A program made the position numbers and the translations under genes. 64,000 nucleotides of DNA from positions 30,704,927-30,768,926 of the forward strand of contig NC_092649.1 of NCBI RefSeq assembly GCF_032118995.1, given 5' to 3'. Below are positions 8,741-54,031 of this stretch, piece by piece (positions within the stretch are counted from its first letter, which is position 1; the number at the start of each line of letters is the position of its first letter). This DNA is from Asterias amurensis (lineage: Eukaryota > Echinodermata > Asteroidea > Forcipulatida > Asteriidae). Below the pieces are notes generated by a model, which searched no databases, was not told the DNA's origin, and saw nothing but the letters and a program-made list of their open reading frames with translations.

Positions 8741-11700
8741 TCAGTTATCATCTTCATCACCCCTATAGACTCTCAGGTTGTTGGTACGAACCACCCTGAG
8801 ATTGGGACAACCATGCAGCTGGTTGGCACCATCCATTGTGACGCAGGTAGAATCAAGGTTGAGGAGGGACAGATGTGGCAACTGGAGAGACTGTATGCCT
8901 ATAGAGAATAAAACACACAAATTATATTTGGAACAGCCATTATCAAGAAGTAAAACCAGCCAATATGACGATTCTCAATGCACATGATCGACACACCAAA
9001 GGATGCTTGGTGACATCGGAGTCTAAGCAACACCAGCAGCCATATGGCAGGCTTGTTTTCAAGTTTGTATAATGCAGTGAAGGTACACTAAGCATGTAAT
9101 GCAGTATGGGGTAACAACAGTTTCCCTGATGCTGTATACAGAAAGTTTGTATAATGCAGTGAAGGTACACTAAGCATGTAATGCAGTATGGGGTAACAAC
9201 AGTTTCCCTGATGCTGTATACAGAAAGTTTGTATAATGCAGTGAAGGTACACTAAGCATGTAATGCAGTATGGGGTAGCAACAGTTTCCCTGATGCTGTA
9301 TACAGAAAGTTTGTATAATGCAGTGAAGGTACACTAAGCATGTAATGCAGTATGGGGTAACAATAGTTTCCCTGATGCTGTGTACAGAAAGTTTGTATAA
9401 TGCAGTGAAGGTACACTAAGCATGTAATGCAGTATGGAGTAACAACAGTTTCCCTGATGCTGTATACAGAAAGTTTGTATAATGCAGTGAAGGTACACTA
9501 AGCATGTAATGCAGTATGGGGTAACAATAGTTTCCCTGATGCTGTATACAGAAAGTTTGTATAATGCAGTGAAGGTACACTAAGCATGTAATGCAGTATG
9601 GGGTAACAATAGTTTCCCTGATGCTGTGTACAGAAAGTTTGTATAATGCAGTGAAGGTACACTAAGCATGTAATGCAGTATGGGGTAGCAACAGTTTCCC
9701 TGATGCTGTATACAGAAAGTTTGTATAATGCAGTGAAGGTACACTAAGCATGTAATGCAGTATGGGGTAACAATAGTTTCCCTGATGCTGTATACAGAAA
9801 GTTTGTATAATGCAGTGAAGGTACACTAAGCATGTAATGCAGTATGGGGTAGCAACAGTTTCCCTGATGCTGTATACAGAAAGTTTGTATAATGCAGTGA
9901 AGGTACACTAAGCATGTAATGCAGTATGGGGTAACAATAGTTTCCCTGATGCTGTATACAGAAAGTTTGTATAATGCAGTGAAGGTACACTAAGCATGTA
10001 ATGCAGTATGGGGTAACAACAGTTTACCTGATGCTGTATACAGAAAGTTTGTATAATGCAGTGAAGGTACACTAAGCATGTAATGCAGTATGGGGTAACA
10101 ACAGTTTCCCTGATGCTGTATACAGAAAGTTTGTATAATGCAGTGAAGGTACACTAAGCATGTAATGCAGTATGGGGTAACAATAGTTTCCCTGATGCTG
10201 TATACAGAAAGTTTGTATAATGCAGTGAAGGTACACTAAGCATGTAATGCAGTATGGGGTAACAATAGTTTCCCTGATGCTGTATACAGAAAGTTTGTAT
10301 AATGCAGTGAAGGTACACTAAGCATGTAATGCAGTATGGAGTAACAACAGTTTCCCCGATGCTGTATACAGAAAGTTTGTATAATGCAGTGAAGGTACAC
10401 TAAGCATGTAATGCAGTATGGGGTAACAATAGTTTCCCTGATGCTGTATACAGAAAGTTTGTATAATGCAGTGAAGGTACACTAAGCATGTAATGCAGTA
10501 TGGGGTAACAATAGTTTCCCTGATGCTGTATACAGAAAGTTTGTATAATGCAGTGAAGGTACACTAAGCATGTAATGCAGTATGGAGTAACAACAGTTTC
10601 CCCGATGCTGTATACAGAAAGTTTGTATAATGCAGTGAAGGTACACTAAGCATGTAATGCAGTATGGGGTAACAATAGTTTCCCTGATGCTGTATACAGA
10701 AAGTTTGTATAATGCAGTGAAGGTACACTAAGCATGTAATGCAGTATGGGGTAACAATAGTTTCCCTGATGCTGTATACAGAAAGTTTGTATAATGCAGT
10801 GAAGGTACACTAAGCATGTAATGCAGTATGGGGTAACAACAGTTTACCTGATGCTGTATACAGAAAGTTTGTATAATGCAGTGAAGGTACACTAAGCATG
10901 TAATGCAGTATGGGGTAGCAACAGTTTACCTGATGCTGTATACAGAAAGTTTGTATAATGCAGTGAAGGTACACTAAGCATGTAATGCAGTATGGGGTAA
11001 CAATAGTTTCCCTGATGCTGTATACAGAAAGTTTGTATAATGCAGTGAAGGTACACTAAGCATGTAATGCAGTATGGGGTAACAACAGTTTACCTGATGC
11101 TGTATACAGAAAGTTTGTATAATGCAGTGAAGGTACACTAAGCATGTAATGCAGTATGGGGTAGCAACAGTTTACCTGATGCTGTATACAGAAAGTTTGT
11201 ATAATGCAGTGAAGGTACACTAAGCATGTAATGCAGTATGGGGTAACAATAGTTTCCCTGATGCTGTATACAGAAAGTTTGTATAATGCAGTGAAGGTAC
11301 ACTAAGCATGTAATGCAGTATGGGGTAACAACAGTTTACCTGATGCTGTATACAGAAAGTTTGTATAATGCAGTGAAGGTACACTAAGCATGTAATGCAG
11401 TATGGGGTAGCAACAGTTTACCTGATGCTGTATACAGAAAGTTTGTATAATGCAGTGAAGGTACACTAAGCATGTAATGCAGTATGGGGTAACAATAGTT
11501 TCCCTGATGCTGTATACAGAAAGTTTGTATAATGCAGTGAAGGTACACTAAGCATGTAATGCAGGGTGGGTAGCAACAGTTTCCCTGATGCTGTATACAG
11601 AAAGTTTGTATAATGCAGTGAAGGTACACTAAGCATGTAATGGGCCTTTTTGAGGCATGGCAGACGTGATACGCGCACATCACACGCTGCGACTTCACTG

Positions 11701-14700
11701 AATAACATACATTCTATTTCTTTGGTCAATATGTTGTAGCATTGTGTCCGCCATATCTCAATAAGGCTTATGCAGTATGGGGTAACATTAGTTTCCCTGA
11801 TGCTGTTTTACCTTGGTTAGAAACGTTGGTTCTACTCAGGTTGAGGCGAGTCATCTGTGAGCAGCTATTCAATGCCTTGGAACAAAGAAACTTATTCCTT
11901 ATCCTGTACAGTCAAAGATAAATGGAGTACATTGGACGACTTCATTTAGGTAAGCCTCCTACTCTTTCACCAACTATTTGAATATAACTCGTAAAATGGC
12001 ACAACCAAGATTAATTGTAATGATAAAGAAAAGTGAATTGAATTTCAAGAACTTTGAAAAAAGGGACAACAATTTCACCTTTGCAATAACAATAGAGCTT
12101 CTCAGATAACGTTACTTTTAAGTCTGATTTGACACTTTAAGTGAAAGCGAATGCAAAGCGAATTGCACAACTCAAATAATCAAATACACGCTGTTTTCCA
12201 ATTGTAACACAAAGAAACTTTGTTTGCTTTAGCAATTTATGTGAAGGATGAACCGGGCTTTACACATGCACATCATTAACAAATGTGACTACAACTATGC
12301 TACAAAACCCATACAATATATCCTTTTGTGCGTGTTGTACCCTACGATGGCAGACCTGTCACATTGCTTTACAAATGGCAGAGAGATTGATCTACTGTAT
12401 AGATCCATGTTTATGAGGACACTTAGAGTGGACAAAGCAAAACAATTGAAGTGAATTGGCTCTAATGGTGTGTTGTGCCTGAGCAGTTTAATGCATCAGA
12501 CTCAAGTTGTTATGGCAAAGTCATCAGGGTGTGGGTGCTAATCCCAGTCATGATACTTAGGTCCTAAGTCATCAGGGTGTGGGTGCTAATCCCAGTCATG
12601 ATACTTAGGTCCTAAGTCATCAGGGTGTGGGTGCTAATCCCAGTCATGATACTTAGGTCCTAAGTCATCAGGGTGTGGGTTCTAATCCCGGTCATGATAC
12701 TTAGGTCCTAAGTCATCAGGGTGTGGGTGCTAATCCCAGTCATGATACTTTGGTCCTAAGTCATCAGGGTGTGGGTTCTAATCCCAGTCATGATACTTAG
12801 GTCCTAAGTCATCAGGGTGTGGGTGCTAATCCCAGTCATGATACTTAGGTCCTAAGTCATCAGGGTGTGGGTGCTAATCCCAGTCATGATACTTAGGTCC
12901 TAAGTCATCAGGGTGTGGGTTCTAATCCCAGTCATGATACTTAGGTCCTAAGTCATCAGGGTGTGGGTGCTAATCCCAGTCATGATACTTAGGTCCTAAG
13001 TCATCAGGGTGTGGGTTCTAATCCCAGTCATGATACTTAGGTCCTAAGTCATCAGGGTGTGGGTGCTAATCCCAGTCATGATACTTAGGTCCTAAGTCAT
13101 CAGGGTGTGGGTGCTAATCCCAGTCATGATACTTAGGTCCTAAGTCATCAGGGTGTGGGTGCTAATCCCAGTCATGATACTTAGGTCCTAAGTCATCAGG
13201 GTGTGGGTGCTAATCCCAGTCATGATACTTAGGTCCTAAGTCATCAGGGTGTGGGTTCTAATCCCAGTCATGATACTTAGGTCCTAAGTCATCAGGGTGT
13301 GGGTGCTAATCCCAGTCATGATACTTAGGTCCTAAGTCATCAGAGTGTGGGTTCTAATCCCAGTCATGATACTTAGGTCCTTGAGTAAAACTTAATTGCT
13401 TCTCTGCATCCAGGGGTGAATGGGTACCTATGAGGGCAGATATGGTTCTTGTGCTTGGTGTGTTACAAACTGGCAGTGCAAGTTACATACTCCCCAGTAA
13501 GCTGAGATGGCCCTACAGTGGTAAGAATGTGGAAACACCATGAGGCACCACTGAGTGACAGATAAAACTTACTGAGTTGCAGCCATACTGAGGACCTGTA
13601 ACCTGTTGAAGCATCCAATAACACTAGCTCCTTCATCTGTAATAGCTGTACGATCCAAGTGCAGCTCCTTTAATTCCACTAAGCCTATATTAAGCAAACC
13701 AGGCAGATAATCCATTATCTTTCAATATATATTTGGTTTGCGGTAACACCATGTGTATATCTACTTGCCAGGTAGAGGTTGTTCTTTAGAGAAGTGTCTT
13801 GCTATATATTCTACTACCGTGGAGTAGATTAACACCATGTGTATATCTCCTTCTGGGTTAGAATGGTGACGTCTTGCATAAATATTAAGAGAGGTGTATA
13901 GGATTGTTATGAACATCCGCATCTCCATCTACACACAATGAGACAGGTTTAAAGAATATTTTGCTTGGCTGAAGGTCCATACTGTTCTATTTTTACCATA
14001 TATAAATAAGGGAATGAATGTGTGGTGAAGAGGTTTTCAACTAGTGGTTTAATCCCAACGAGGCCTGTTCTTGATAGTTTACCGAGAGGAAGTCAAGGTA
14101 AATTATCAAGAACCAGGCCTTGGCGGGTTTAAACCACTAGTTTAAAACTGATTCAACACACTTTGATTCCCATTCATAAATACCTTTTCGGTCAAAATCA
14201 TAATCACTTGTTGGTCAAAAAATAAAATAAATGCAAAAATTTTAAGTGTTAAATGATTTCTTTCAACACAACACCCCTCCAGCTACGAAATGGTAGAGCC
14301 CTCCGCTGCCCTCGCGTAAACAACTTATAAAAAGTGAATGCTGTGGGCGTCGCGCGTATCGCGTGATGTGGCACAACTGTCTCAGCCATTGCTCTCAACC
14401 AATAGGAATGAAGAAACTGTCTTATAAGTACAGGTGCAAGGTTGCGTGTCACGTCTATGAATTACCACTTTTTACCGATCATTAACAAAAGGTTTATGCA
14501 TACCCACGTGACGCGCTCTCCACCAATAGGAGTAGAGAAACTGTCTGGGGTATTTATGATTAACTGATGATTCCCAAAGCCCAACGTATTTCTTAACAAC
14601 AATTAACAAGAATTTTGGTGAGCAGACCAACTGCTGTGCTTAATTCCCCCTGACCCCCAATCTATAACCATCTAAGACTAGTTTGATTTTAACAAAATAT

Positions 14701-17700
14701 AAAATAGGACCATATATGTGATTTGAGGCATTGTAACAATGTTGACAATTGTTTTTTTTAACAATCTGTGCTCGTTCTCATCAAGAGACTGAAGACTTGG
14801 CTAAAGTTTTTATTTCTTGTCTCCTGTTGAAGTGAATGCTTATTTTCCAAAGTTCCTACCTTTGATATATGTCATGGCAAGGTCCGTTATCTTGGTGTTG
14901 TTGAGAGACAGCTTTGTCAAACTGCAATTAATCAATATAATCCAACTCTTGTTCAAATGAGACCAACTCTAGCATTCACAGTGATGTATTACAACCATTA
15001 AAAGGGCCAAAATATGAGGGGTGAGTGGGTCAAAGAAAATACTGAATTATTATAATTTACTTTAACTTTTGTTTAAAATATACAAGTTCAAGTATAATTT
15101 CTCAGACACAATTTCTATTGGCCAACTAGTCAGATTGTGGACTTAATTCCTGGTAACAATACATGTTAATTCAACCAGCTTGAGGTTGGAGTTGAGAAAG
15201 ATTGAGGAATAGTTCAATTCTACCGGTTGAACAGGGATAATAATGAAAGTGTCTTGATCTACAATCCCAGCCAAACTGCTTGGGCCACCCATTCGCTACC
15301 TTACAGTAAACATTCCTTATCGACTTCCCCCTGACAATAAACATTCTCTCTCCGTCTCCCACTCAATGTTGATTGAGACGCAGAATACCGCACAATGAGG
15401 ACCAACATGGAAAGGGGGCATGGAGGCCCAGCGAGATATGGCAGGGATTGTAGCTACTAGGGTTATTATTAATGACAACATTCCCACACAGGTAAATAGA
15501 TAGTTGATATTGTGCATCAGGTTGCCTCCATACCTTGTCATATCAGCAATGTGATGAATACCATCATCTGTTATGTGAATGTAGTCAGTCAGATCCAATG
15601 CTACTAATGGCATACCTTCATAAAATGCACAAAAATAATAGAGTTAGTGGAACTGCACTGGTATACACATAACACATTTAAGAGCACACTGGAAACTCAT
15701 CCACTTAAAACTATTAATTTTGGTTTTTACCCATACACCGCTGTGTATTGGCATTGTATACTCAGTTCTTTCCAGAGTCCTTTGAAAAAATATCACAGGC
15801 ATATTACTCGGGTAGGATTCAAACCCACGACCCTTGCAATTCTAGAGCAGTGTCTTACCAACTAGACTACCCAGGTTGCCCGGTAGCTAGAGGCAGTTCG
15901 AATCCTATGTTTTGGAAGCGAGTAAATCCCAGTTGGCAAGACACTGCTCTAGAATTGCAAGGGTCGTGGGTTCGAATCCCACCCAAGTAACCAAGTAATA
16001 TGCCTGTGATATTTTTTCACAGGACTCGGGAAAGTACTGAGTATACTGTGCTAACACACAACAGTGTATGGGTAAAAACCATAATTTATTTATCCCCGAT
16101 GCAAATTTAACATCTCTTATACTTACAACTAAATATTTTCACTTGAATGGTTTAAACTTCAACTGTTAATAAGCAAGATGTAGTTTTAGCCTGTGAATTA
16201 GCCATTAATGATTAGTAATGTTTAATAATAGTTTGTATTTTAGATCAAACTGCATTTTTAATACTTCGTTAATTCACTTTATCCAGCTACATGTACTCAT
16301 TGATTGTTTTGAAGACTTTTTACTCATACAGTTAAAATTCCTAATCTGTTCTAATAGTTTGTCTGTACAACTGTACCTGCTTAGTTTTTGACTCGTGCCT
16401 TTTCTTCAGCACCCTGGAGCATGTCAATATGATTAAGGCCTTCCATATACACATTGGGTATTTTTTTAATATTGTTATTATTATATTGAAGAGGGAGGCT
16501 CATGAAGAATTAGAACCCCCATGAGCATTTCAATCAATACTAAAAGGATAACTTTTGGGGCACACAATAGAAACCAGCTTTTCTGTGTATGTGTTTGATG
16601 TTGTTTTGTACATGAGAAACACCCATCCCAAAGCCCCAGCCCCACACCTGCTAAAGCTAGTTCTCAGCCCCATACAAAGATATTTGCTGGGTGCACACTC
16701 ACTATATGGACACTGTATGTTTGGCCTGAAGTATCTTTATGCTATTAGATTTGGTCGTCATTTTTCCTTATTTATAAGTAAGCATCTAATCTTTCAAGCT
16801 TTTCTAAATAAAAAGCTTTTGTAAATAGAACTCAAAGCTCATTCCACAATTGATTTTGACTGACACGTCATTGTGCGAATGGAGTTGTTTATAATTTTTT
16901 GCTAACTTAAAGCGCGCAGCACTAAGTCAAACTCTGTGTGTCTGTGGAGTTGTTTTTCAATTTTTGTTTTAATCTCAAGATACCATGTTTTCAATGGTCA
17001 CTGCTACAACTTACCTGCAATTGAGCAAAGTCCATTGTTTGTAGTGGTATGTCTGTCTGGCATCTGTAACTGCTTAAGATCCAAACCTGAGTATAAGAGA
17101 AGATAGGATCCTGAGTTAGTGATTAGGTCCTCAAGGAATTCAATATCTATAAGCATAAACATACACACAATGTTTTACTAAGCTGTTCATAAAAAGACAA
17201 TTGCTGTGTAGCACCTTGTCCCCAGTCATGATCAACCCCTTTGCCCCCCTTAACCCAAGAGTCCCCCTACACTCATCAACATGACACACCTTGGAGATGA
17301 TGCAGCACCTTGTCCCCGTCATGATCAACCCCTTTGCCCCCTTAACCAAAGAGTCCCCCTACACCCATCAACATGACACACCTTGGAGATGGTGCAGCAC
17401 CTTGTCTCCAGTCATGATCAACCCCTTTGCCCCCTTAACCAAAGAGTCCCCCTACACTCATCAACATGACACACCTTGGAGATGATGCAGCACCTTGTCC
17501 CCAGTCATGATCAACCCCTTTGCCCCCTTAACCAAAGAGTCCCCCTACACTCATCAACATGACACACCTTGGAGATGATGCAGCACCTTGTCCCCAGTCA
17601 TGATCAACCCCTTTGCCCCCCTTAACCAAAGAGTCCCCCTACACCCATCAACATGACACACCTTGGAGATGATGCAGCACCTTGTCCCCAGTCGTGATCA

Positions 17701-20700
17701 ACCCCTTTGCCCCCCTTAACCAAAGAGTCCCCCTACACCCATCAACATGACACACCTTGGAGATGATGCAGCACCTTGTCCCCAGTCATGATCAACCCCT
17801 TTGCCCCCCTTAACCAAAGAGTCCCCCTACACTTATCAACATGACACACCTTGGAGATGGTGCAGCACCTTGTCTCCAGTCATGATCAACCCCTTTGCCC
17901 CCCTTAACCAAAGAGTCCCCCTACACTTATCAACATGACACACCTTGGAGATGGTGCAGCACCTTGTCCCCAGTCATGATCAACCCCTTTGCCCCCCTTA
18001 ACCAAAGAGTCCCCCTACACTTATCAACATGACACACCTTGGAGATGGTGCAGCACCTTGTCTCCAGTCAGGCCTTCTAGCAGCATAACATTGACAGCTT
18101 GTAAGTCAGGAAGATTAGCAAGTTGATCCAAGGCTTCAGCAGTGAGAGTATTTCGTGCAATGTTAATGGAGCCTAGAGTTGTCAGATTTCCAATTCCTTG
18201 TAGACTGGACACCTACATGTAAGAACATCCAAAAATAAACAAGAATTTAGCACAATGTGTTACAAGGTAAAAGTGTTTTGATTGTTTTGCCTTTAATTTT
18301 TTTTTAATAGTTTCTCTTCATTGTTATTTTAGGTTTTCGCGGTAATTTTATTACAAATTCCGATATTATATTTTTAGTAAAATTGAAAGCGACTCAAACC
18401 AGTCGCAAAATGTTCACAATGTAGTAGCAATTGTTCTTTTGGGATTAAAAAAGATTTAACAATTCAATTTAACAATCTATTATTTATAGTTATTATTGGA
18501 CACATAACTCCAACAAAACTCAAAAACAAATTAACCAAGCTTAGTAGGGTAAAATGATCAATTGAGCCAACTTTAAAAACAGTGCCTTCATAAATGAGCA
18601 TCATTACAAAGTGTCCACAAAAACTAATATTACTTACTTTTGTTTTTTCCAAGCTAAGACTCTTCAAATTTGGAAACACTGCAACAACAAAAAAAGTGTT
18701 GTAAATTTTTGCATGATTTTCTAACAAACTCCAAAACCAGAACCACAACTCAACATCCGAGCTGTTGGACTCTGAATATGGTGTTATGATATGTCATTTC
18801 GACCAACAATCAGAGGAAATGTTCAGTGAAATACGATTCTAACATTTTCAATGGTTTCAGATTTGTATCCCTTGAACAAATTGTTGCCTCCACAAAATGT
18901 GGACCATAAGTTCTGCTAAGTAATTTTGTCAATAGTAATAATAATACTTGGTTCTCATTTAGTACTTTTTATCATACCCCTTGGTGCGAAACAAAGCACT
19001 CAGTGGTTTATCTGCAAGGTATGTTGAGCTATGATTTTGAAGTATAATACATTCTTCTTATATCACCATGTAATGGTTTTACAAGGTGCTGTGGCGCAAT
19101 ATGCTGCCAATCAAACTAGGAACACCGGGGCAAACCCCTACTTTTACGATAAGCGCACTGGATTTCTTTCTGGCGTTTCACAACACACGAGACCAACAGT
19201 TTTACAGAACCATCGGAAGGATGAAGCATGTGGTTAAGTATCTTGATGGATGAAGCATGTGTTTAAGTGTCTTGATTAAGGACACAAGTGTCACGACTGG
19301 GACTGGAACCCATACTCTGTTGATCAGAAACACCAGAGCTCGAGTTTGGTGCTCTTTACCACTTGGCCACTACACGCCACAGGCACAAGTATTAAGCAGC
19401 GAATTTAGTAGTGAAATAAGTTACTTGTGTGAACATACCCTTATTGGGCTTAACAAGACAATTGAGCCACTCACCTGCTAGTAATGGAATGACAATATCG
19501 GATACATTGGTTCTGCTTAGACTCAGATGAGTTAAATGAACCATAGATGAGGAAGCCAAAACTCTGACTCCTTTATCACTCACTGAGGTATCGGCTTTAC
19601 AAGACAATTGAGCCACTCACCTGCTAGTAATGGAATGACAATATCGGATACATTGGTTCTGCTTAGACTCAGATGAGTTAAATGAACCATAGATGAGGAA
19701 GCCAAAACTCTGACTCCTTTATCACTCACTGAGGTATCGGCTTTACAAGACAATTGAGCCACTCACCTGCTAGTAATGGAATGACAATATCGGATACATT
19801 GGTTCTGCTTAGACTCAGATGAGTTAAATGAACCATAGATGAGGAAGCCAAAACTCTGACTCCTTTATCACTCACTGAGGTATCGGCTTTACAAGACAAT
19901 TGAGCCACTCACCTGCTAGTAATGGAATGACAATATCGGATACATTGGTTCTGCTTAGACTCAGATGAGTTAAATGAACCATAGATGAGGAAGCCAAAAC
20001 TCTGACTCCTTTATCACTCACTGAGGTATCGGCTTTACAAGACAATTGAGCCACTCACCTGCTAGTAATGGAATGACAGTATCGGATACATTGGTTCTGC
20101 TTAGACTCAGATGAGTTAAATGAACCATAGATGAGGAAGCCAAATCACTGACTCCTTTATCACTCACTGAGGTATCCTCCATAATCAAGGTCACCAGATT
20201 GGATAGATCTGAAAACAACCAACAATCAATCATTATACAAATAATACTATGCAGCTCTTACATGTCTGCAGGTATAACAGAAACTTGAGTGTGTCAGAGA
20301 TACTTCACATCACAGTCTTCCAAAGTCTGACAAATTGTGACCTCTGACGTCACACGAAAACCATAACATGATTCGCGCGCATACCGCCGGGCAAAACCTT
20401 TGTGTTTTGGCAGCCAGCAAGAAAGTGTACGCAATCTTACTACGACTACGCAACTTAGTGCCCGGCGAAACATGACGTATATAGTGTTTTGTCAACAGAG
20501 GGCGGTTGGAATGTAAACATAGGTCACATCGTCTATAGGATGTGAATGTATGGCTTGGGTATACCGACAAACACACAGCAAAGTAATACAGGGGAAATCT
20601 TATTCAAGATGTATGTGGTTGCTTATAATGTGATTTAGCACTTCCGGATACCTGATCAAATTAAGCAAGCCTTTTAAAATCAAAGCTCCAAATTGATAAA

Positions 20701-23141
20701 GTAGTCCAGTCTTGAGTTTCTTGAAGTCAAGTATTAAAGTTGATTGATAAAGTTGGGCAGGAAGGTTGTTTCAAAGCCTAGGACCAGTAAAGCGGTAAGC
20801 ACTGTGACCAACCGAGTACAAGACGGTATTTGAAACTTCACCATGCTAACCTTCAAACCATGCTAACCTTCAACCATGCTAACCTTTAAACTATGCTAAC
20901 CTTCAAACTATGCTAACCTTCAAACCATGCTAACCTTCAAACCATGCTAACCTTCAAACTATGCCAACCTTCAAACTATGCTAACCTTCAAACTATGCTA
21001 ACCTTCAAACCATTCTTACCCTCAAACCATGCTAACCTTCAAACCATGCTAACCTTCAAACTATGCTAACCTTCAAACCATTCTTACCTTTGATTGATTG
21101 TAGACTCCCATCAGTGAGTTGTTTGTTGTTACTGATGTTCAGATGCTGAAGTTTCTTCATACCTTGAAGAAAACAAATGATGTTATTCTTGAGTTGGGTA
21201 GTGAGAAGTACAGTGGACGTGGGGGGGGGGGGGGGCAGGGGGTTGGATGGTGAGGGGTTTATAGATTACAACGATACTAATGTAGAGAAGCTGAATTTTT
21301 AAGGATGTGGGTCCAACGTGTTAGAGCTGAAGGCAAACAAGGATGCCTTTGTGAAAGAGTTACATGCCACATCAGAATATAGAGATTATGGAACACAGCC
21401 ACAAAAAAGCTTGGGCGATATCACGATATTATCGAATATCGCGATACTAATTTGGAAATGATTTTGATATCGGTTCGATTTGGTTTTAATCAAAATATCA
21501 ATATATGGCGATATATGGCGATATATCGTGATATCGATTTAGTATCGCAATATCGCGATGTATTTCCTAGATGAGACATCTTGCACCCCATAGGCTTTGA
21601 GTAAAACCATAAGCATAGGTCATTATAACACCTCTCTTATGCTACGATTGTCTCTTCTACAACTTTCACTGGGAGTTTGAAGACTGATGATGTCAAATTT
21701 AAATAATTGCGATTCTATCGAATATCGCGATATATTATCGGCGATATATCGTGAATAAAGTAATTTGATATCGCCCAAGCTTAGCCATAAACTAAAGGTA
21801 TTTGGTTTTCTTTGGTCTGTAAGGAGATGGCATGTACTATAACCACAGGGTAGACTTACTACTGATAGAGACAAATGCTTGGTCTGTGAGGAGAGGGCAT
21901 GTACTATAACCACAGGGTACCCTTACTACTGATAGAGACAAATGCTTTGTCTGTGAGGAGGGGGCATGTACTATAACCACAGGGCAGACTTACTACTGAT
22001 AGAGACAAATGCTTGGTCTGTGAGGAGAGGGCATGTACTATAACCACAGGGCAGACTTACTACTGATAGAGACAAATGCTTGGTCTGTGAGGAGAGGGCA
22101 TGTACTATAACCACAGGGTAGACTTACTACTGATAGAGACAAATGCTTTGTCTGTGAGGAGGGGGCATGTACTATAACCACAGGGCAGACTTACTACTGA
22201 TAGAGACAAATGCTTGGTCTGTGAGGAGAGGGCATGTACTATAACCACAGGGCAGACTTACTACTGATAGAGACAAATGCTTGGTCTGTGAGGAGAGGGC
22301 ATGTACTATAACCACAGGGTAGACTTACTACTGATAGAGACAAATGCTTGGTCTGTGAGGAGAGGGCATGTACTATAACCACAGGGTAGACTTACTACTG
22401 ATAGAGACAAATGCTTGGTCTGTGAGGAGATGGCATGTACTATAACCACAGGGTAGACTTACTACTGATAGAGACAAATGCTTGGTCTGTGAGGAGAGGG
22501 CATGTACTACAACCACAGGGTAGACTTACTACTGATAGAGACAAATGCTTGGTCTGTGAGGAGAGGGCATGTACTATAACCACAGGGTAGACTTACTACT
22601 GATAGAGACAAATGCTTGGTCTGTGAGGAGAGGGCAGGTACTATAACCACAGGGCAGACTTACTACTGATAGAGACAAATGCTTGGTCTGTGAGGAGAGG
22701 GCATGTACTATAACCACAGGGTAGACTTACTACTGATAGAGACAAATGCTTGGTCTGTGAGGAGAGGGCAGGTACTATAACCACAGGGCAGACTTACTAC
22801 TGATAGAGACAAATGCTTGGTCTGTGAGGAGAGGGCATGTACTATAACCACAGGGTAGACTTACTACTGATAGAGACAAATGCTTGGTCTGTGAGGAGGG
22901 GGCAGGTACTATAACCACAGGGCAGACTTACTACTGATAGAGACAAATGCTTGGTCTGTGAGGAGGGGGCAGGTACTATAACCACAGGGCAGACTTACTA
23001 CTGATAGAGACAAATGCTTGGTCTGTGAGGAGGGGGCATGCACATAGGCTGAGTCTGTTGATGTGGATGTGCAGTCTGACAGCTTGCATAAGCTCATTGG
23101 TAGTGTACTTGTAGCAGTCCAGCGTCAAGTGCTGAAGATGA
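8741..23141 (-). CDS. Exons 11-21 of the UBX-LRR gene: leucine-rich repeat domain and stop
   Basis: These exons carry about a dozen LRRs of the L..L.L..T.ITD.G type. Examples: LQHLNISNNKQLTDGSL (exon 12), LTHLSLSRTNVSDTV (13), LKSLSLEKTKVSS (14/15), LVALDLTDYIHITDDGI (17), LTKLSLNNTKITDLA (18), LKELHLDRTAITDEGA (19), MTRLNLSRTNVSNQG (20). The ITD/VSD signature is that of cysteine-containing-type LRRs seen in FBXL and AMN1 proteins, which bind protein substrates. Most exons are close to one repeat long. The protein ends GDEDDN. Six introns here and just upstream (8, 11, 12, 13, 15, 20) begin with tandem arrays. Confidence 0.87.
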
Positions 23142-26100
23142 CTGAGGAAAAGAAGGTGAAAAATGATTTTTGATCTGATAATTAACCCAAATAGAAACAA
23201 ATGGTAGTGTGTCGTAGCTGAGTGGTTTAGATCACTGAACCTAAGTTCTGATGTTGAGAAGGAATGCCCTAGTGGCACAAACCATAATCCAGTGGACCAC
23301 AAGGCATTCTGCAGGATTGAGCCATTGTGCAGAACTTGTAAAACATTCAAACTTATGTATTTTGAACATTCCGATAAAACAATCTGGTGGTCCAAGTAAC
23401 CCCACTGGAATACCTGACCGGTTATTGTGGAACACTCTTACAGTTTAGACTACTCAGGCACTCTCTACAGACCACGCAGTGATTGGAAACCAGACTGAGA
23501 ATGAACTCACCAGGGCAAGAACAAATTAAGTGTCTTAGGTCTGAGAGTTGCAGACTTCTTTAGTTCATCTACTAATTGGCTAGCAATGTGTGGAGGTAAT
23601 GCCTCCAGGGTAGTTACAGGTTGATGTGATCTCCCCTCGATGCGTTTACTGACACAGTGGAGACATAGATCTTGTAAAGCTGGTAGGGATGAGGCTGGTC
23701 TCTCTGGGCTCTTAGAGGTACAAGAGGAAGCCTGGGACACGGCAGCGGCTGCTAGCCTTGACAGCGCTGCTGCAGCTATGGATAGAACAAACAAACTTGT
23801 CCATGACATCACTGGCGTGTCAAGGCAGAGAGATATAGAGCATGAAAATCCAGATCTAATCGTTATCAGAGTTTGGGTTGCAAGCTGTGTGGTGACACTG
23901 ATGTCCTTTAGAGAGACATACATCAATGTTTTAGATTCAAAGGCTCTCTTGTAGCACTAAGACACTGCATATAAATGCTTTCAAATTATGTGATTTACAC
24001 AGAGTGTGTCTTTGAAACTCGGCCTGACTGGTCATAGTGCTTGTGTTTTTGAGTGAGATAAATAATCACCTTTTGTTTGGAAACAATAATCTAGGTTAAT
24101 AGGTCGTTATAGGAATATAACCGGGAATACTTGTCATGGAAGATTATGGGTTAACCCCAGTGTTTTGTTTCTTAGAAAACACCTTTGTCACCAGGTGTCC
24201 TTAGCCTTCTCCTCAATATTCTTTCTTTACGCATCCTCACTTTTACAACTGGAAATCTGTTTAATTGGTTTCAAAATTAAAAATCAATAACAATAAAATA
24301 AAGTAGAAAAAAATACACTGGCCTAAACTGATCTTAGAATAAGTTTAGCTTTTATTTTTTCAACCCTTTTGCAGAGTTGAGTCTTACCTGCTCTCTGTGG
24401 GCTTGGTACGCCCTCTGGATCATTGGCACCAGGCTCAACATTTCTGAAGCCATAGTCAAAGTTGAGATTTCTCCTGCCATCTTGAAGACGGTTTCCTCCT
24501 CCCCAATCATAATTGCCTCCTCCTAAACGATAGCAAATTATTCCAGGCTTTTTATGTATTTTATTTTATTTATTACAAATCCAACAGCCTAATTACAACC
24601 AATAGCAGGATAGATAGGAAACAGGAACTTTTTAAAAACTAAGATGTGGAGGGACAACTCAAATTAGAAAAACACCCGCAATTAGAATGAAAACGCAATC
24701 CACATGCAAGGCTCCGGTCTATGGCAGGATTATGACGGAATTCTAACCAGAGGTAAAAAGGCAGGGAAATAAACCACTAAGACAACCTGATCCCTTGTTG
24801 TCTTAACCCTGATGAATACATTGTAAACAAATCACACAATTAGGTCAGTAGAAAACTGTAAAGGCAAATGAGATTGAGGCAGGGCTAAGGATTGGGTCAA
24901 GGTTACAAAGTCTTTACATGATCTTGCTTCGTATTGGATTGGTGGGTTATAGAATGACTGATATGTTAGGACTAGGGGTTAGGGTCTAACTACCTTGTAC
25001 ATCCTGCAGACCCCAAGGTACATGTTGAGGTGGTGCTATGAGCAATGAGTATTGGACTGGTGGGTTATAGAATGACTGATATGTTAGGACCATGGGTTAG
25101 GGTCTAACTACCTTGTACATCCTGCAGACCCCAATGTACATGTTGAGGTGGTGCTATGAGCAATGAATATTGGACTGTTGGGTTATAGAATGACTGATAT
25201 GTTAGGACCATGGGTTAGGGTCTATCTACCTTGTACATCCTGTAGACCCCAAGGTACATGTTGAGGTGGTGCTATGAGCAATGAGTATTGGATTGGTGGT
25301 GTATAGAATGATTGATATGTTAGGACTAGGGGTTAGGGTCTAACTACCTTGTACATCCTGTAGACCCCAAGGTACATGTTGAGGTGGAGCTGGGGCTCCC
25401 CAAAGCATATCCTCTTCCCTTTCACCTTCCTCATCGACATCACCCATTTCCTCATCTTGCACTATGACATCCTCCACATCCATTGGTGCATGCTCTTCCC
25501 CGCTCAGATCATTTTCTGGGCTAAGGGCTTGTCCGCTGCCCCATTGGTGAAGGGGTACTGGTGGTTGAGGAAGAAGGTGTGGTGGGAGAATGGCATTGAC
25601 CAAGGAACTGGGAAGCTGACCATCAAGTAGTTTGGGTGGACTGCTCTGATCAGGAGGGGCAGACTGTGCCATTCCATCATTAACTTCTCTGTCATCTGAG
25701 GGAGAAAGTAAACACAATTATGCTTTTTTCAATTGCCTCTTACTATTATTTTTTTCAAAAACTATTACATGTGATAGATTGGAGATGTGCAATAACAGTA
25801 GTATATTACTGCCATACATGATGTCATCAAACAAAACATTTGTCAGCAAGGACAAACCCATCCGACAGACAAACCCATCGACCAATCCAAATTGTTCACA
25901 ATTAATCACATAGTTCTGCTTCAACTTAAATTGATTGTTTTTACTGCACCCAATACAAATAATTCACTCTAAGAAAGGAGCCAGACAATGCGATCTCTGT
26001 ATAGTTATATGGCCATAAACTAAGAAGGTCAAAGTTACCTAAAGTTGTACTAGTTTTATGAGGAGAGACTAAAGACATACAAACAGGTTAGGTAACAACA

Positions 26101-29100
26101 GAAACACAATTAAAGTAAGTGCTTACCACTTGATGATTGTGGTGGTGCTATTTTGACCACCAGACAGCCAGTGGGTGTCAACTTTAACTCTTCCAGAGTT
26201 GAATTACCATCCTGAGTTGTGAATAGCCGATGAGGAAATGGCTAAGAGTAGGAGGTAACAAGAAAAGGCACCTAATTAACGTTTGAAGGAGACTGTATCT
26301 TTAGTGACATGAGCAACATGACTAGACGAGCATTGCAAACTCACCAAAACAACTTTCCAATTTGCGTTCCTCTTCTCAAATTCAGTTCATTGCATTCTAA
26401 GCACCACCAAGGAGAGCCAATAAGCTTGTCATTTCATTGGTCCATCAGCTCGTTCACTTAGTCCAGAATGATATTAAATAAAGGATGCTATTTTCAGCTC
26501 AAAGGGAGTATTTACCTGAATGAAATTAATAGATGTCAAGTCAGCTTGCTTAGTCCTAATGCAGTCATCAACAGACTGAAGCGTTGCTGATGAAAGAAAC
26601 TTCTCTCGTATGGTCTGTCCAGATGGTAACCTTATCTGATGAAACAAAACAAACAACCAATGAGAATGGGTGACAGAGTTTACAATAGGTCTACCTCATA
26701 GGTATTTTCTAGGTATTTGAGTGCTTGAGAATTTCTTTTGGAGGTGTTAAGCGCTATAGAAATGCAGTTGTTTTTATTATTATTTCTTTCAAGATAAGAC
26801 ATTCAGTCTTGAGTCACCAGGTTTGATATTAAGATTTTGAACAACTGAACCCTGTTACATTTCCCAGATTTCTTGTCTCCCTATCTTTCTAATCTGGTAT
26901 GCCTTAATGGTTATCTTGCCCTGCCTTTCAAATATCTGGTCCCTGGTTTAAATCCCATCTTGGACAGCACCTTACATGCAGTTTCGATTTGGAGTATCTC
27001 CTTGATTACATTGGTCTTCCCTTCTTTAGGGCTCTTCTCCCACAATTAAAACTGAACAGGTCTACCATGTCATCTCTACAAGGCCCCTTGGTTGCAAAAC
27101 TAGAAAGGTTGAACAAACCGAATAACACTTATTAACAACATAGATCTTTTTGGACATATTTCTTTGGAAGCTTTCATTAGTGATGGGCAAGAAAAAGTTT
27201 TCGGATATATACTATGAAACATGATAATAAAAACAAACACACTTAGGGGCCTTGTCCAAACCTCCAAGCTGTTCCTTTCCACATGCATTCTGCGGGTGTC
27301 CAAAGATTTTTAAAACAAAAGGACCATTAGCAACCGAGCAGGTCCATGGCCAGGACCAATCATTTACATGTCAATAAACGTGAATATTCCAGCGGCTCTG
27401 CAGAGCGACTGGTTGGCTATTGTAAGGACCAGCTTATTTTAATATCAATAAGCATTTCATGGCAGCTCTGCGGACTCGCTGATCAGCAGAACCGCAGAGG
27501 AACGCAGGTTGTGAACAATGACTTTACCTTTGAAGAGCAAAACGCAAGGTAAGGGTGGATGTGTAACTAATAGCAATTTTCTCAATTTGTAAGTCAATTT
27601 TCTTGATTTTTAAGACCCAGTTAGGCCTATTGACCAAAACGGGTCTTTTTTAGAAATGGTTTTCTTTATTCCCGGCTTTGACTGACAAAAGTTTCAGCCA
27701 TTACATTGCAGGCTACGTATAAGCTCCGGTTTATTTCCATAGTTTTAGTGATTTACGATTTTGTCCCACGAAGTTGCAAAAGTGGGCGTCAGAGTAAAGC
27801 AATTACAGGGAACAATTTAACAATTACAATAATCCTTTGCAGCGATCGTGATGAACATAAAACTATACTAGTTATCATACAAGAAAATGAAAGGGGGATG
27901 TGTTTATTTACGGGACAGGGTTACGAGACGTGAACAGACGAGAACCAGTTTATTTACGTAAGTACGGCGGGATTGGAACAAGTTATATAGAAACCTCCAT
28001 GTATTTACATAAACGGGCACTCCTCTCAGGGGCCAGGATGTGAATAAATGAATTTGGGACTTTGGTTTTTTTACAGAAAGATGTGAGCAGGTAATGTGTT
28101 CGGATGTGGGAACTTATGGCAAAGATATATTTATCATAGGAGAAGACGGGACTTGTATGTTGCAACAAAACTTTAAGTGACTTTACCAATCTTCCTTTTA
28201 GCAACCAAACATGTGGTCTGACGTTTGGACCCTATTCTGGAAGGTCCACTCGTCACACTACTCACTCATTTTTGCACCATATTAACTCATGGACCGAACA
28301 CAGCCGAAAAAAGTGGTGAACATTTTAAGTTGTTTAGCCGTGACTGAATATTTTGCTTTTTTAAAAATACAAACCAGTTCTGTGCCTCTTGAATAAGAGA
28401 AAAAAAGGGTAGCGACAAGTTCTTTAACGGCTGTTAAAACCGACAGGGTCATTGCTGTGTGATAAAGGTCAGAGCTTTTGAGAAAGAGTCACTACTCTTT
28501 TATTCCCTTTCATAAATGCTTTTTTTGTGTTAAAAAACATTAAAAATATAATTATAGACACTTTGGCAATTGAACATTGAAGGTCTGAGGTATTTATTTC
28601 AAAAACTTTGTGAAGAATCTGTTTGATGCGTGCGGGTTGAGGTACACGCAGGTTGAGGTACGCTTAAAATAGATTACGCGCTGTAACTAATAGCTATAAA
28701 TTGCGCATTCCGCATGATAATAGTGGCATACACGCTTGCCCGACACGCAGAAGGCAGCCAATTATAAACAGCTCCAGCTGGTCATTATCAACCGTTTAAA
28801 CACCCCATCTCCACAGATAGGAGTAGGGAAACGGTCTGGGGTTTATGAATGCCGTTAACTGCCTCTGGATAGATGCTGAGTTTCAAAGTCGGCGATTTGG
28901 TTGACTCTATTGAATGTCTAAACAATCTTGCAGCGCTCGATTATCACATGAGCAGGGGGTTGGCTGGCGCACCCAATGTGCATGGTGCAATGGTATTGTC
29001 GATGCGGCCTGTCCGCTTCCAGGACGATGGTATTCATGAGTTAAAAAAGTATTATTTTGGGGAGAGCAAGGCCGGTCCCCGTCCAAGCTGCAGATATTCA

Positions 29101-42723: not shown

Positions 42724-42959
42724 AAAACGATGATAATTAACATGAGAAAGGTCTACACCAAGCAAGACAAGCAAGAGGAGAAGGCGCCGGGATCCCAGCT
42801 ATAGTTGGGCCACCCAACTGTAAATACCCAAGTTCATGTGACAAGTCTATGGCGTGTCAAACGTTGCATTATTCGATAATGTACAATATATGTGCGATGT
42901 TTCTCATATATATGCGATAATTGTCACATATGTGCGATATTCATTTGATGTATGCAATA

Positions 42960-43345
42960 AATGTAATATATATGCAATAAATGTAATATATATGCAATAA
43001 ATATAATATATATGCAATAAATTGTAATATATGTGCGATAAATTGTAATATATGTGCGATAAATTGTAATATATGTGCGATAAATTGTAATATATGTGCG
43101 ATAAATTGTAATATATGTGCGATAAATTGTAATATATGTGCGATAAATTGTAATATATGTGCGATAAATTGTAATATATGTGCGATAAATTGTAATATAT
43201 GTGCGATAAATTGTAATATATGTGCGATAAATTGTAATATGTGTGCGATAAATTGTAATATATGTGCGATAAATTGTAATATATGTGCGATAAATTGTAA
43301 TATATGTGCAATAATTTGCAATATATGTGCGATAATTTGCAATAG
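42960..43345. repeat. 21-bp minisatellite in the left arm of the foldback
   Basis: About 14 tidy units of 21 bp (GATAAATTGTAATATATGTGC) with flanking degenerate units. Because 21 is a multiple of three, all minus-strand frames stay open and produce spurious repeats of ITIYRTY; these are not genes. Confidence 0.92.
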
Positions 43346-45454
43346 ATATGTGATATTTTTTAATATCTGTTTGATAATTTTGTAGTATATTATATGCGAT
43401 CATTTGTATGCGATGTTTTGTGACGGTATACATATGCGATAATTTAATATACATGTGCGATGTTCATTCTTATATATGTGCGAAAACGGAATTGTGGGTT
43501 ATAGTATGGCTTCCTGTCCACTTGATCCCGGTATCCGTAATGTTTTAGATCGGGCCAGACTATACTCTGGACGGTATAGTATGGTTCCTATGGTTCAATG
43601 AGATTGGCGTAGGGTTTATAGTGATGGTCAGGGTACGAGACTCGAGCAGCGTATTTCCGAAACAGCCAGCCAGCCGCGTATTCGGATAATAGAACACATA
43701 CAGTACAGGGAGGTGACAAAATGTTGCATTTTGCTCAAATCTGAAGGTGAAGATCTGTTTTACTCGAACGAATTCTGCAATATTAGCATAATTTAGAATT
43801 TTTAATTGATAATATGTCAATTTCATAGCTTCACATGATTAAAAAATAATTTTTAAAAAGTGAAAAACATTAACAAAACGTCAAAAAATGACCCGCAAAC
43901 AAAAAGGCAAAAGTATTTATTTTGTATTTTTTGCATTTTTTAATATGTCAAAAAAACATCACTGTGAAATACAAAACCATAACTTGAAAAGAATTTATAC
44001 CCTTCGTTAAAACAAAACATTTAATTTGTAATCCAGAACTTTCAAGACTAATATAGTGGGCGTATCAAATTTTGGAGCTGGGTAAATTTGGTTCACTATC
44101 TAGTGGTTAATTAACCACAGTTATTCTGACGCCATTGTCAATGTACATTCCGCCCAATTACATAGACGGTGCACTTAAACACAATTTGAAAAGAATTTGA
44201 ACCCTTCGTTAAGACAAAAAGTTGCTTTCTTGTTCCAGAACCTTGAAGGAAGATAGACTGGACGTATCAAATTTTGAGCTGGCTAAATTGGTCAACTATT
44301 ATTGATTCTGCAATAAAAAGAAAATGTTTAAAGAAAATGTTTAAAGAAATTGTTTGTCTTATCGAAGGGTGTCACCACTTTTTGCTCGCGGCTGACATAA
44401 CTATAAATGTGGTGACTAAGATTCAAAAAATTTGAAAAATGATTTTGCAAACAAGACACAGTTGAATTTTTATAGCACAAGAACTTTTAAATTTTATTGA
44501 CAACAATTAAAAATAATCAATCATGAGTGTTTCAGATATAGCTCGGTAATTTACTAACTTTAACTGTTCTACGATTTAAAGTCACCTGGAAATAGAAGTG
44601 TTTTTCTTTCAAACATAAGAGTATATGCTTACGAACAATAAAACAATTTATTTAGTAATTGATAAGACAAACATTTTCTTTTTATTGCAGAATCAATAAT
44701 AGTTGACCAATTTAGCCAGCTCAAAATTTGATACGTCCAGTATATTAGTCTTGAAAGTTCTGGATTACAAATTAAATGTTTTGTTTTAACGAAGGGTATA
44801 AATTCTTTTCAAGTTATGGTTTTGTATTTCACAGTGATGATTTTTTGACATATTAAAAAATGCAAAAAATACAAAATAAATACTTTTGCCTTTTTGTTTG
44901 CGGGTCATTTTTTGACGTTTTGTTAATGTTTTTCACTTTTTAAAAATTATTTTTTAATCATGTGAAGCTATGAAATTGACATATTATCAATTAAAAATTC
45001 TAAATTATGCTAATATTGCAGAATTCGTTCGAGTAAAACAGATCTTCACCTTCAGATTTGAGCAAAATGCAACATTTTGTCACCTCCCTGTACTGTATGT
45101 GTTCTATTATCCGAATACGCGGCTGGCTGGCTATTTCGGAAATACGCTGCTCGAGTCTCGTACCCTGACCATCACTATAAACCCTACGCCAATCTCATTG
45201 AACCATAGGAACTATACTATACCGTCCAGAGTATAGTCTGGCCCGATCTAAAACATTACGGATACGGGGATCAAGTGGACAGGAAGCCATACTATATCCC
45301 ACAATTCCGTTTTCGCACATGATTATAAGAACGAACATCGCACATGTATATTAAATTATCGCATATGTATACCGTCACAAAACATCGCATACAAATGATC
45401 GCATATAATATACTACAAAATTATCAAACATATATTAAAAATTATCGCATATAT

Positions 45455-45660
45455 TTTGCAATTTATCGCACATATATTACAATTTATCGCACATATACTA
45501 CAATTTATCGCACATATATTACAATTTATCGCACATATATTACAATTTATCGCACATATATTACAATTTATCGCACATATATTACAATTTATTGCATATA
45601 TATTACATTTATTGCATATATATTACATTTATTGCATATATATTACATTTATTGCATACA
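45455..45660. repeat. 21-bp minisatellite in the right arm of the foldback
   Basis: The mirror of the left-arm array, with only about six tidy units plus three degenerate ones. The length difference between otherwise well-matched arms shows the array changed size after the arms formed. Confidence 0.9.
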
Positions 45661-45764
45661 TCAAATGAATATCGCACATATGTGACAATTATCGCATATA
45701 TATGAGAAACATCGCACATATATTGTACATTATCGAATAATGCAACGTTTGACACGCCATACTA

Positions 45765-51772: not shown

Positions 51773-52440
51773 TACCTGCACAGGTTTTTACCTGCACAGG
51801 TTTTTACCTGCACAGTTCTTATGGAGGGTATTTAACACACGAAATCCCATTGGCAATGTTGTGACAAAATGAGGATCCAAGCTCAAGAGCGGTTCACCAA
51901 TCAGATCTTGGTATTTTTACCTGCACAGTTCTTATGGAGGGCATTTAACACACGAAATCCCATGGGCAATTTTTGTGACAAAATGAGGATCCAAGCTCAA
52001 GAGCGGTTGACCAATCAGATCTTGGTATTTTTACCTGCACAGTTCTTATGTAGGGCATTTAACACACGAAATCCCATTGGCAATTTTGTGACAAAATGAG
52101 GATCCAAGCTCAAGAGCGGTTGACCAATCAGATCTTGGTATTTTTACCTGCACAGTTCTTATAGAGGGCATTTAACACACGAAATCCCATTGGCAATTTT
52201 GTGACAAAATGAGGATCCAAGCTCAAGAGTGGTTGACCAATCAGATCTTGGTATTTTTACCTGCACAGTTCTTATAGAGGGCATTTAACACACGAAATCC
52301 CATTGAGAATTTTGTGACAAAGCAAGGATCCAAGCTCAAGAGGGGTTGACCAATCAGATCTTGGTATTTTTACCTGCACAGTTCTTATGTAGGGCATTTA
52401 ACACACGAAATCCCATTGAGAATTTTGTGACAAAGCAAGG
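51773..52440. repeat. 113-bp satellite (about 6 units) with a CCAAT box in each unit
   Basis: The unit runs CCTGCACAGTTCTTATGGAG ... CACGAAATCCCATTGGCAAT ... GACCAATCAGATCTTGG. Unit starts are near 51807, 51920, 52033, 52146, 52258 and 52372. The copies are over 90 percent alike by eye. The two distal copies share CATTGAGAATTTTG and AAAGCAAGG. A short CCTGCACAGGTTTTTA triplication precedes the array. Open frames across it are by-products. Confidence 0.92.
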
Positions 52441-54031
52441 ATCCATGGCCATCCAATCATATTGTGCGCTTAAGTTCTGGCGCCACACTCAATTTTGGGT
52501 AAGCAGACAAACCTGCTGAGCAGTGGAATTTGCCCCTGGATGTGTAGGTGACATAAACGTCACAGAGCAGACCAATCAGAACACGGAGCGTAAAAGCCCA
52601 ATGCAAGCTATTATCCATCTATTGAAATCATTCATAAATACAGTGCCTTTCTTCGGGCCCAGCCTTTGTTTCTTGTTATCATGTGGAGTTTTCTACCCCT
52701 CGACTATTTTAAATAGAGCTTTGTTTGGGTGATTTACCCAGTTGTAAAAGTATTACGAAGTTCTTTTTCTTTTCTGTTCGCACGTGATTCAGTGGAAATT
52801 TCCGTTCAGATTTCGTTCACTTTTGTTAAAACTCTGGCAGCGTGGTTGGCCAGTTGACTCAACGCTAAGATACGGTAAGGGTGGTTGTGGCCGGATGCGG
52901 CCGGTAACGTTTTACAGTAAGATGACTGAACTTAGTTAGATATTGTTTTATATTTATGGGAGAATTTTGCCTTATTTTCATGTGCACCATGTGCTATATG
53001 CTGTGCTACATTACTAAATGCTGTGTTCGCTGTCTATATGCTTATTCTCGTATCGTAGGACATCCTGTTTTCAAGGTGTCCCTATAATCGCGGCAAATCT
53101 GTTACCTTTCGTGCTTGATGTATAAACATTCTCTAAATAAATTGTTTGTGGTTTGACCATGGTTTGACTTGCCAAGCAAAGAGTCTCCTATCACTTGACC
53201 AAAACTTAGAACCATGTAAGGCTCCACTCGTTAGTTGCACTTGCAAATGCAAATTTAGTGCTTTAGGCGTTTTTACAACTTTTTACTAGGTACAAAAATT
53301 GGTCACAATGTTGGGCCATATAAAGAAAAATTGCCCTCCGGAAAAGTTTTATCAAACACTTTTTAACTTACATTTTACGAGGATCAGATCTTGTGACTGA
53401 ATATTCTGCTGAGCATTCTGTGAAATAAATACAGAGACTTAAATAAGCCATGTGCCCTATATCATTTTCTTTTGAGAATGTTGTTTTAACCCTCATTATT
53501 ATTAAAACACTTGCTAGGTGATTCAATTATCACTATTTATTTATGAGTTTTACTATATATATTAAGGAAACAAAATAAAGAAAAAACAAATACAAATACA
53601 AGCCATTTACAGCTCAACAAGGTGGGCTAGGAAACGTTTTGCCCTTCACACTCCTGGAATTGTTATTTAAAACTGCATCTGGCAATTAGTCTATTTGCAA
53701 GCTTGTCTCTATGTTGTTTGTTCTCACGGTGAGCTCAGCCGCGTTGGTCCAGAAAATTATCCCTGCAAAAAAGAAGTAGCAAACAAATGCTCACCCAATT
53801 TTCACTCTCGTTAGTAAATATATATGCCTCCCCCTCGTTGAATTGTTTTAGGTTTAAGACTAAGTTTCTTATTGTGTCTGCCTCATCTCTGTTTTTCCTT
53901 CAATTTAACATCTGTTATTTAACATCAATTATTTGAGGATTACAAGTTCTATTGTAGCCTGCCTGATAATAGTCCAAACATTGATACATTATAAAATTGT
54001 GTCTCTTGTCTATAGTAAATATAATCAGATT
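52441..54031. other. No supported gene
   Basis: Mixed unique sequence. A donor-like ATACGGTAAGGG follows a GC-richer patch at 52780-52910 and could mark a first exon of a plus-strand transcript, but no coding frame supports it. A 36-nt minus-strand splice-bounded frame near 53730-53763 is discussed under rejections. Confidence 0.35.

Follow-up and report, generated by a model that had tools for sequence, protein, structure and literature searches.

The DNA analysed here (the window) is a stretch of 64,000 nucleotides from the sea star Asterias amurensis, corresponding to positions 30,704,927-30,768,926 of contig C2 in a genome of which 491,506,623 bases on 23 contigs were searched. It harbours a minus-strand gene with UBX and leucine-rich repeat (LRR) coding exons, in which six introns carry tandem arrays at their donor (5') splice sites. 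The gene body examined extends over window positions 8741..26635 (-) and comprises exons 6-21, numbered as in a first-pass annotation of the same DNA; the junction-level tests cover these exons, with 15 donors and 16 acceptors. The exons were located by inspection of the DNA and then verified by frame, a first automatic exon caller having been too strict (9 candidates). Joined at AG/GT, the 16 exons form one open frame that encodes 714 residues and has its only stop at the end, and this fixes the native donors. In Pfam, the product matches UBX (2.9e-12) and several LRR models, the best being LRR_4 at 6.3e-14.

The six exons that precede an array all lie on the minus strand within this frame: exon 8 (348 nt, 25348..25695), the 3' end of which is repeated in intron 8, exon 11 (143 nt, 22999..23141), exon 12 (75 nt, 21088..21162), exon 13 (150 nt, 20059..20208), exon 15 (175 nt, 18038..18212) and exon 20 (92 nt, 11812..11903). 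The first intron bases that follow them, which define the native donors of introns 8, 11, 12, 13, 15 and 20, are 25347, 22998, 21087, 20058, 18037 and 11811, respectively.

Tandem Repeats Finder (TRF), with which the arrays were called, finds them at the donors of all six introns named in the first-pass annotation, again on the minus strand, and the repeat unit spans the exon-intron junction in five of these, intron 20 being the exception. The intron 8 array (24931..25391) consists of 3.9 copies of a 118-bp unit made of the last 44 nt of exon 8, the donor and 74 nt of intron, and holds four junction copies. In intron 11 (21812..23040), a 67-bp unit with the last 42 nt of exon 11, the donor GTAAGT and about 25 nt is repeated 18.3 times; 17 of its 18 junction copies are unchanged. 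The 146-bp unit of intron 13 (19447..20176, 5.0 copies) takes in the last 118 nt of exon 13, GTGAGT and 28 nt, with the junction unchanged in 5/5 copies. That of intron 15 (17210..18070, 9.2 copies) joins the last 33 nt of exon 15 to GTGTGT and about 61 nt, unchanged in 9/9; its length, previously given as a plain 92 bp, is 94 bp at first and 93 and 92 bp later, while the other five unit sizes were correct. The units of these four introns thus hold the exon's 3' end and a donor, as first described.

For introns 12 and 20, the units had been thought to start at the first intron bases, which needs correction in both cases. The 17-bp unit of intron 12 (20840..21090, 14.8 copies) opens with the last three exon bases, AAG/GT (the slash marks the junction); donor-like copies do occur, as had been reported, with 14 junction copies, the majority of which carry the weakened donor GTTAGC. 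In intron 20, the order from the donor is a partial unit copy of 37 nt (11770..11806 (-), donor +6 to +42, 97% identical), 127 nt of other sequence and then the array body (11642-9061), in which an 82-bp unit without exon sequence is repeated 31.5 times. A second measure of the exon share gives 40, 40, 3, 118 and 33 nt for introns 8, 11, 12, 13 and 15, compared with 44, 42, 3, 118 and 33 nt within the TRF arrays.

The unit sequences are unrelated, in agreement with the first-pass annotation. Among 21 pairs formed by seven units, the six above and that of an array inside intron 19, the only pair alike is that of introns 15 and 19, through one 12-mer, ATCATGACTGGG. Unrelated units, together with the presence of the own exon's sequence in 5/6 of them, support independent origins. 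The dispersed intron 19 repeat may, via this 12-mer, have given short homology for the intron 15 duplication. Two of the six donor arrays, those of introns 8 and 20, were searched against the genome at the DNA level and had no match elsewhere; a mobile or dispersed origin of these two was rejected on that ground.

The other splice sites of the gene differ from these six donors. For the 16 acceptors of exons 6-21, the 600 nt upstream contain no copy of the junction; in the same test, clean results were obtained for the donors of exons 6, 7, 9, 10, 14 and 16-19. Within introns 8, 11, 12, 13 and 15, none of the 45 downstream donor copies keeps the frame without a stop, and 44/45 meet an in-frame stop. 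The native frame passes only through the first donor and so requires its use: if the gene makes this protein, splicing would have to rely on that donor entirely or almost entirely.

Tandem repeats spanning exon-intron boundaries are known as "mirages" from the amphioxus Adh3 gene and, later, from globins, where the account in PMC3087553 places them at both boundaries and notes their length instability. The cases in PMC3087553 and PMC3902484 include the globins BflGb6 and BflGb9; PMC3902484 also presents TnC as a further case and compares the imperfect repeats of PGBD5 with mirages. As far as these accounts go, the sea star arrays resemble mirages in being minisatellite-like and boundary-spanning, many with copied splice signals, with units of 10-160 bp and, in the genome as a whole, cases at both boundaries. 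In this gene the units measure 118, 67, 17, 146, 94 and 82 bp and are present in 3.9-31.5 copies, and a unit that spans the boundary and copies the splice signal is found in introns 8, 11, 12, 13 and 15, not in intron 20. They differ from the amphioxus mirages described there in occurring in a sea star, six in one gene, with up to 18 junction copies; one haplotype is covered here. The six unit lengths, a set too small for a test, are all indivisible by three.

It is probable that the arrays are junction-spanning minisatellites of the mirage type, which arose by ordinary tandem duplication and are tolerated at donors. For the five spanning arrays, a stretch of 17-146 bp straddling an existing donor would by chance be tandemly duplicated, and the duplicated stretch would then expand via ordinary minisatellite turnover, that is, unequal exchange or slippage. 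Duplication over a donor would be tolerated at no cost, since the upstream native donor would still end the exon and all further copies would leave with the intron. A copied acceptor would instead precede the true one and would have to be ignored or disabled. The presence of the own exon end and donor in 5/6 array units supports this explanation, as do the open frame through the first donor and several findings described below: recurrence of the structure in other genes, junctions without special conservation, the re-expansion pattern of intron 13 and, weakly, the even spread of array edges. Its first-donor use, manner of array growth and neutrality are what we infer; first-donor use rests on the frame and on the amphioxus account in PMC3087553, in which the Adh3 data and globin reverse-transcription polymerase chain reaction are taken as a sign that regular splicing proceeds undisturbed.

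The same structure recurs elsewhere in the genome. A sample of 65 merged segments (245,895 bases, 246 kb) around myosin, kinesin and CCT exons, with 131 exon matches, was screened by local alignment for recurrence of the 60-nt junction within 600 nt; the splice sites were chosen by script with weight tables, and the sampled families are strongly conserved, so that the rate in less constrained genes may be understated. Junction repeats were found at 5/120 donors, 2/126 acceptors and 26/1500 random non-exon positions. The donor count was originally 6/121, and one case was dropped because its "donor" sits in a duplicated exon copy. The 1500 control positions come from the same 246 kb, lie >150 nt from annotated exons and overlap mutually, which makes the p-values approximate: 0.07 for donors versus random positions (about 2.4 times the rate), 0.27 for donors versus acceptors and 1.0 for acceptors versus random positions. 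A background of junction repeats at both boundaries is therefore real, and a donor excess is at most suggested (p=0.07).

Several individual cases in other genes are close counterparts of the arrays in the window. The dynein locus L092 has six copies of the exon end with CTATAG/GTAAGG, spaced 176-188 nt, and the dynein locus L093 has GCTATAG/GTGAGT in six copies. Among the kinesin loci, L038 contains five junction copies about 187 nt apart and two more further down, L094 three junction copies about 152 bp apart, and L039 a 30-bp unit in 2.3 copies starting from the last exon base. A CCT gene on C14 has its native donor and four downstream copies (five in total), two of the four with AT for GT. 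Diverged two-copy donor duplications occur on C13, where the donor of the diverged copy is weakened, on C17 and at C10:21437299. Acceptors are duplicated on C9 (seven copies), C22 (one diverged copy) and C10 (one copy, in a kinesin gene). In the last case (G000, C10:21436943-21437169), the exon is duplicated over its acceptor, and the upstream copy reads GTGG and the used copy GTAG; this loss of the upstream AG matches what tolerated duplication would predict for an acceptor. The C9 array, at a hand-recognised exon without a Pfam row, and the short L039 array, which shares one exon base, stand outside the junction counts. In the sampled genes, donor cases exceed acceptor cases by 9 to 3 (p=0.15), or by 15 to 3 with the present gene included (p=0.008, not independent).

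Searches with seven families, which gave 596 rows (81+129+58+94+92+72+70) judged by eye without a script, revealed repeated ends at three donors (C2 dynein, C11 dynein and C10 kinesin) and one acceptor (C10 kinesin); these rows miss many cases, since more are present in the DNA of the kinesin genes. When the kinesin search was rerun at E<=10, the number of rows rose from 129 to 138, with no additional duplicate ends seen.

Instead of being tolerated by-products, the copied donors might be selected as decoy or regulatory sites, for example to hold the U1 small nuclear ribonucleoprotein, slow splicing or suppress premature polyadenylation, a possibility raised in the first-pass annotation. The unchanged junctions of introns 11, 13 and 15 (17/18, 5/5 and 9/9) would fit such a role. 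However, across four arrays of this gene (introns 8, 11, 13 and 15) and two others (dynein L092 and kinesin L038), with the last copies excluded, 2/54 sites of the 9-nt junction are variable compared with 58/806 exonic and intronic sites (25/422 and 33/384, respectively, p=0.17 between them, both counts including the junction sites). The donor copies show no special conservation relative to the remainder of the unit. Moreover, the intron 12 copies mostly have a weakened donor, two of the four downstream donors of the C14 CCT gene read AT instead of GT, and the diverged C13 copy has a weakened one. Selection for decoy donors has no support from these data and appears highly improbable.

Concerted evolution within a cluster, with edge copies set apart, is reported for amphioxus mirages in the account cited; the arrays of the present gene differ from one another in this respect. 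In intron 13, copies 2-5 differ from one another by a mean of 0.003 and from copy 1, the real exon, by 0.022, as expected from recent local re-expansion. The corresponding values for copy 1 versus the others and among the others are 0.096 and 0.102 in intron 8, 0.029 and 0.029 in intron 11, and 0.036 and 0.039 in intron 15.

The density of arrays in the gene was compared with chance. With at least three copies and a period of at least 10, the gene has eight arrays, two of which are interior: a 48-bp unit repeated 18 times in intron 19 (12518..13381 (-)), away from the donor and made of a genome-dispersed repeat, and a short array with a 10-bp unit in intron 11 (21501-21534). The first-pass view that arrays lie always at the downstream edge of an exon describes 6/8 of them and overstates the pattern for the whole gene. 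The shuffled-position null that it proposed was run within the gene: the eight arrays were given random positions after the gene had been collapsed for arrays (11,465 nt, 15 donors), with 20,000 trials for each of three viability rules. The mean number touching a donor was 0.82-0.92, and the probability of at least six was 0 to 1e-4, a value conditional on a gene picked after the fact for looking striking.

Several of these observations weigh against tolerated duplication as the whole explanation. The arrays are unusually dense in this gene (at most 1e-4 for six or more if random), a density that the tolerance model does not predict; 6/15 donors have arrays here versus 5/120 in the sample (Fisher p=0.0002), or 4/15 when strict junction spanning is demanded (p=0.009). 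Acceptor duplications in the sample are not clearly depleted, their 2/126 being about the rate of the 26/1500 random positions, and those on C9, with its seven copies, and C22 keep intact upstream acceptors. In addition, introns 8, 11 and 15 lack the re-expansion contrast of intron 13.

The same density might be explained by a mutational process that acts at exon boundaries on the donor side and seeds duplications there more often than elsewhere; candidate causes at 5' splice sites are R-loops, template switching and breaks linked to transcription. The first-pass annotation had proposed a mechanism at exon-intron boundaries, with slippage linked to replication or transcription and repair of breaks at donors as examples. 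Besides the 6/8 arrays at donors (P at most 1e-4), the 9 to 3 ratio of sampled donor to acceptor cases (p=0.15) and the roughly 2.4-fold rate over random positions (p=0.07) point in this direction. The sample is less favourable. Of its 15 large arrays (TRF score >=100), three are at a donor, one is at an annotated acceptor and one (C9) at the acceptor of an unannotated exon, whereas 10/15 are away from an annotated boundary; the latter is an upper figure, since exons outside Pfam rows are unannotated, and one of the ten continues the C14 donor cluster. Nor do the array edges have a fixed position: in nine arrays, four of them outside the gene and measured by reading (L093, C14, C13, C17 and C10:21437299 were left out), the exonic fraction is 0.03-0.84 of the unit, compatible with a uniform distribution (Kolmogorov-Smirnov p=0.94, a weak test at n=9). 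This spread fits random segments, unlike a break at one fixed point by the donor. Over the first unit length past the donor, G is 0.37 and C 0.15 in intron 15 versus 0.13 and 0.31 in intron 8, and this difference in strand composition implies that there is no common R-loop signature.

A genome-wide pattern search for two CAGGTAAGT words 41-71 nt apart gave 27 matches in 7 places versus 44 for the reversed word, the places of which are unlisted. While the higher count of the reversed word does not favour a process specific to donors, these numbers neither support nor refute donor enrichment, since one array can yield many matches. With acceptors hit as well, a boundary-specific mechanism is possible but, in our judgement, unlikely. 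Its fullest form appears rather improbable too: a process linked to transcription or splicing would favour 5' splice sites as starting points of duplication, there would be hot genes with at least a third of their donors arrayed, and the spliceosome would routinely have to pick the foremost among as many as 18 near-identical donors.

The arrays may also be seen as steps towards new introns or exons, with the copy of an exon end coming to serve as an exon itself. This idea is found in PMC3087553 for amphioxus globins and in PMC3443670 for tandem genomic duplication generally. Intron gain by tandem genomic duplication, as reviewed in PMC3443670, is similar in that a segment with a splice site is duplicated within a gene and the extra copy leaves with the intron. 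It differs in that duplication of an exonic AGGT creates an intron where there was none, whereas here a pre-existing intron grows. A new intron position bounded by duplicated AGGT was not found in the gene; the arrays lie inside introns with acceptors elsewhere. In favour of new exons, each intron 13 copy contains 108 nt that end in a strong donor (8.2) and are preceded by an acceptor-like AG, the score of which (0.21) lies within the range of the gene's real acceptors (-0.71 to 4.74). Read by hand, these 108 nt (within 19447-20058 (-)) form an open stretch that matches the phase of exons 13 and 14, so that splicing in a copy might in principle add 36 LRR residues. On the other hand, this support comes from one of the five junction arrays, and in the first intron 13 copy the exon would begin 38 nt past the donor, a distance probably too short for an intron. 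We regard this route as very unlikely.

Finally, the repeats could have been collapsed or over-expanded during assembly. Array copy numbers are prone to misassembly, and one mirage was seemingly misassembled in the amphioxus draft, according to PMC3087553. The Asterias amurensis assembly (491.53 Mb), however, was made from PacBio HiFi reads with a library of about 15 kb, as given in the assembly details of PMC10625585, longer than the longest array of 2.6 kb. Point changes distinguish the copies, and unrelated genes show the same structure. An assembly artefact is hardly credible.

Other repeats in the window lie outside the exons examined. At 51773-52445 (-), a 113-bp unit is repeated 5.7 times; read on the minus strand, its last bases are the donor-like CTGTGCAG/GTAAAAA, and it is followed by a 16-bp array of that word. 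This may be a candidate donor array at a putative non-coding exon. Two 21-bp arrays in opposite orientation (42885-43390 and 45408-45724) flank two near-identical 92-residue frames on opposite strands (43560-43838 (-) and 44958-45236 (+)), and the region 42885-45724 forms a large inverted repeat, possibly a mobile element.

Earthworm metallothionein genes also have minisatellite arrays in their first intron (PMC12783039), which, as here, lie within introns of a coding gene; unlike the present units, their monomers are not described in the portion of that source used here as holding an exon end and a donor. A literature search of titles and abstract beginnings, with most subscription journals outside its coverage, returned no echinoderm mirage and none at this density. 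The first-pass statement that no case of such density had been described stands within that literature, although the kind itself is in print as the amphioxus mirages of PMC3087553. The kind is thus already known, and the echinoderm example with six arrays in one gene appears, within the literature covered, to be new.

These arrays extend what had been an amphioxus curiosity to another deuterostome lineage, in several unrelated genes. They are natural test constructs for the choice of one donor among up to 18 near-identical ones at fixed spacing, of which only the first would be usable, and they offer raw material for duplication models of intron and exon gain.

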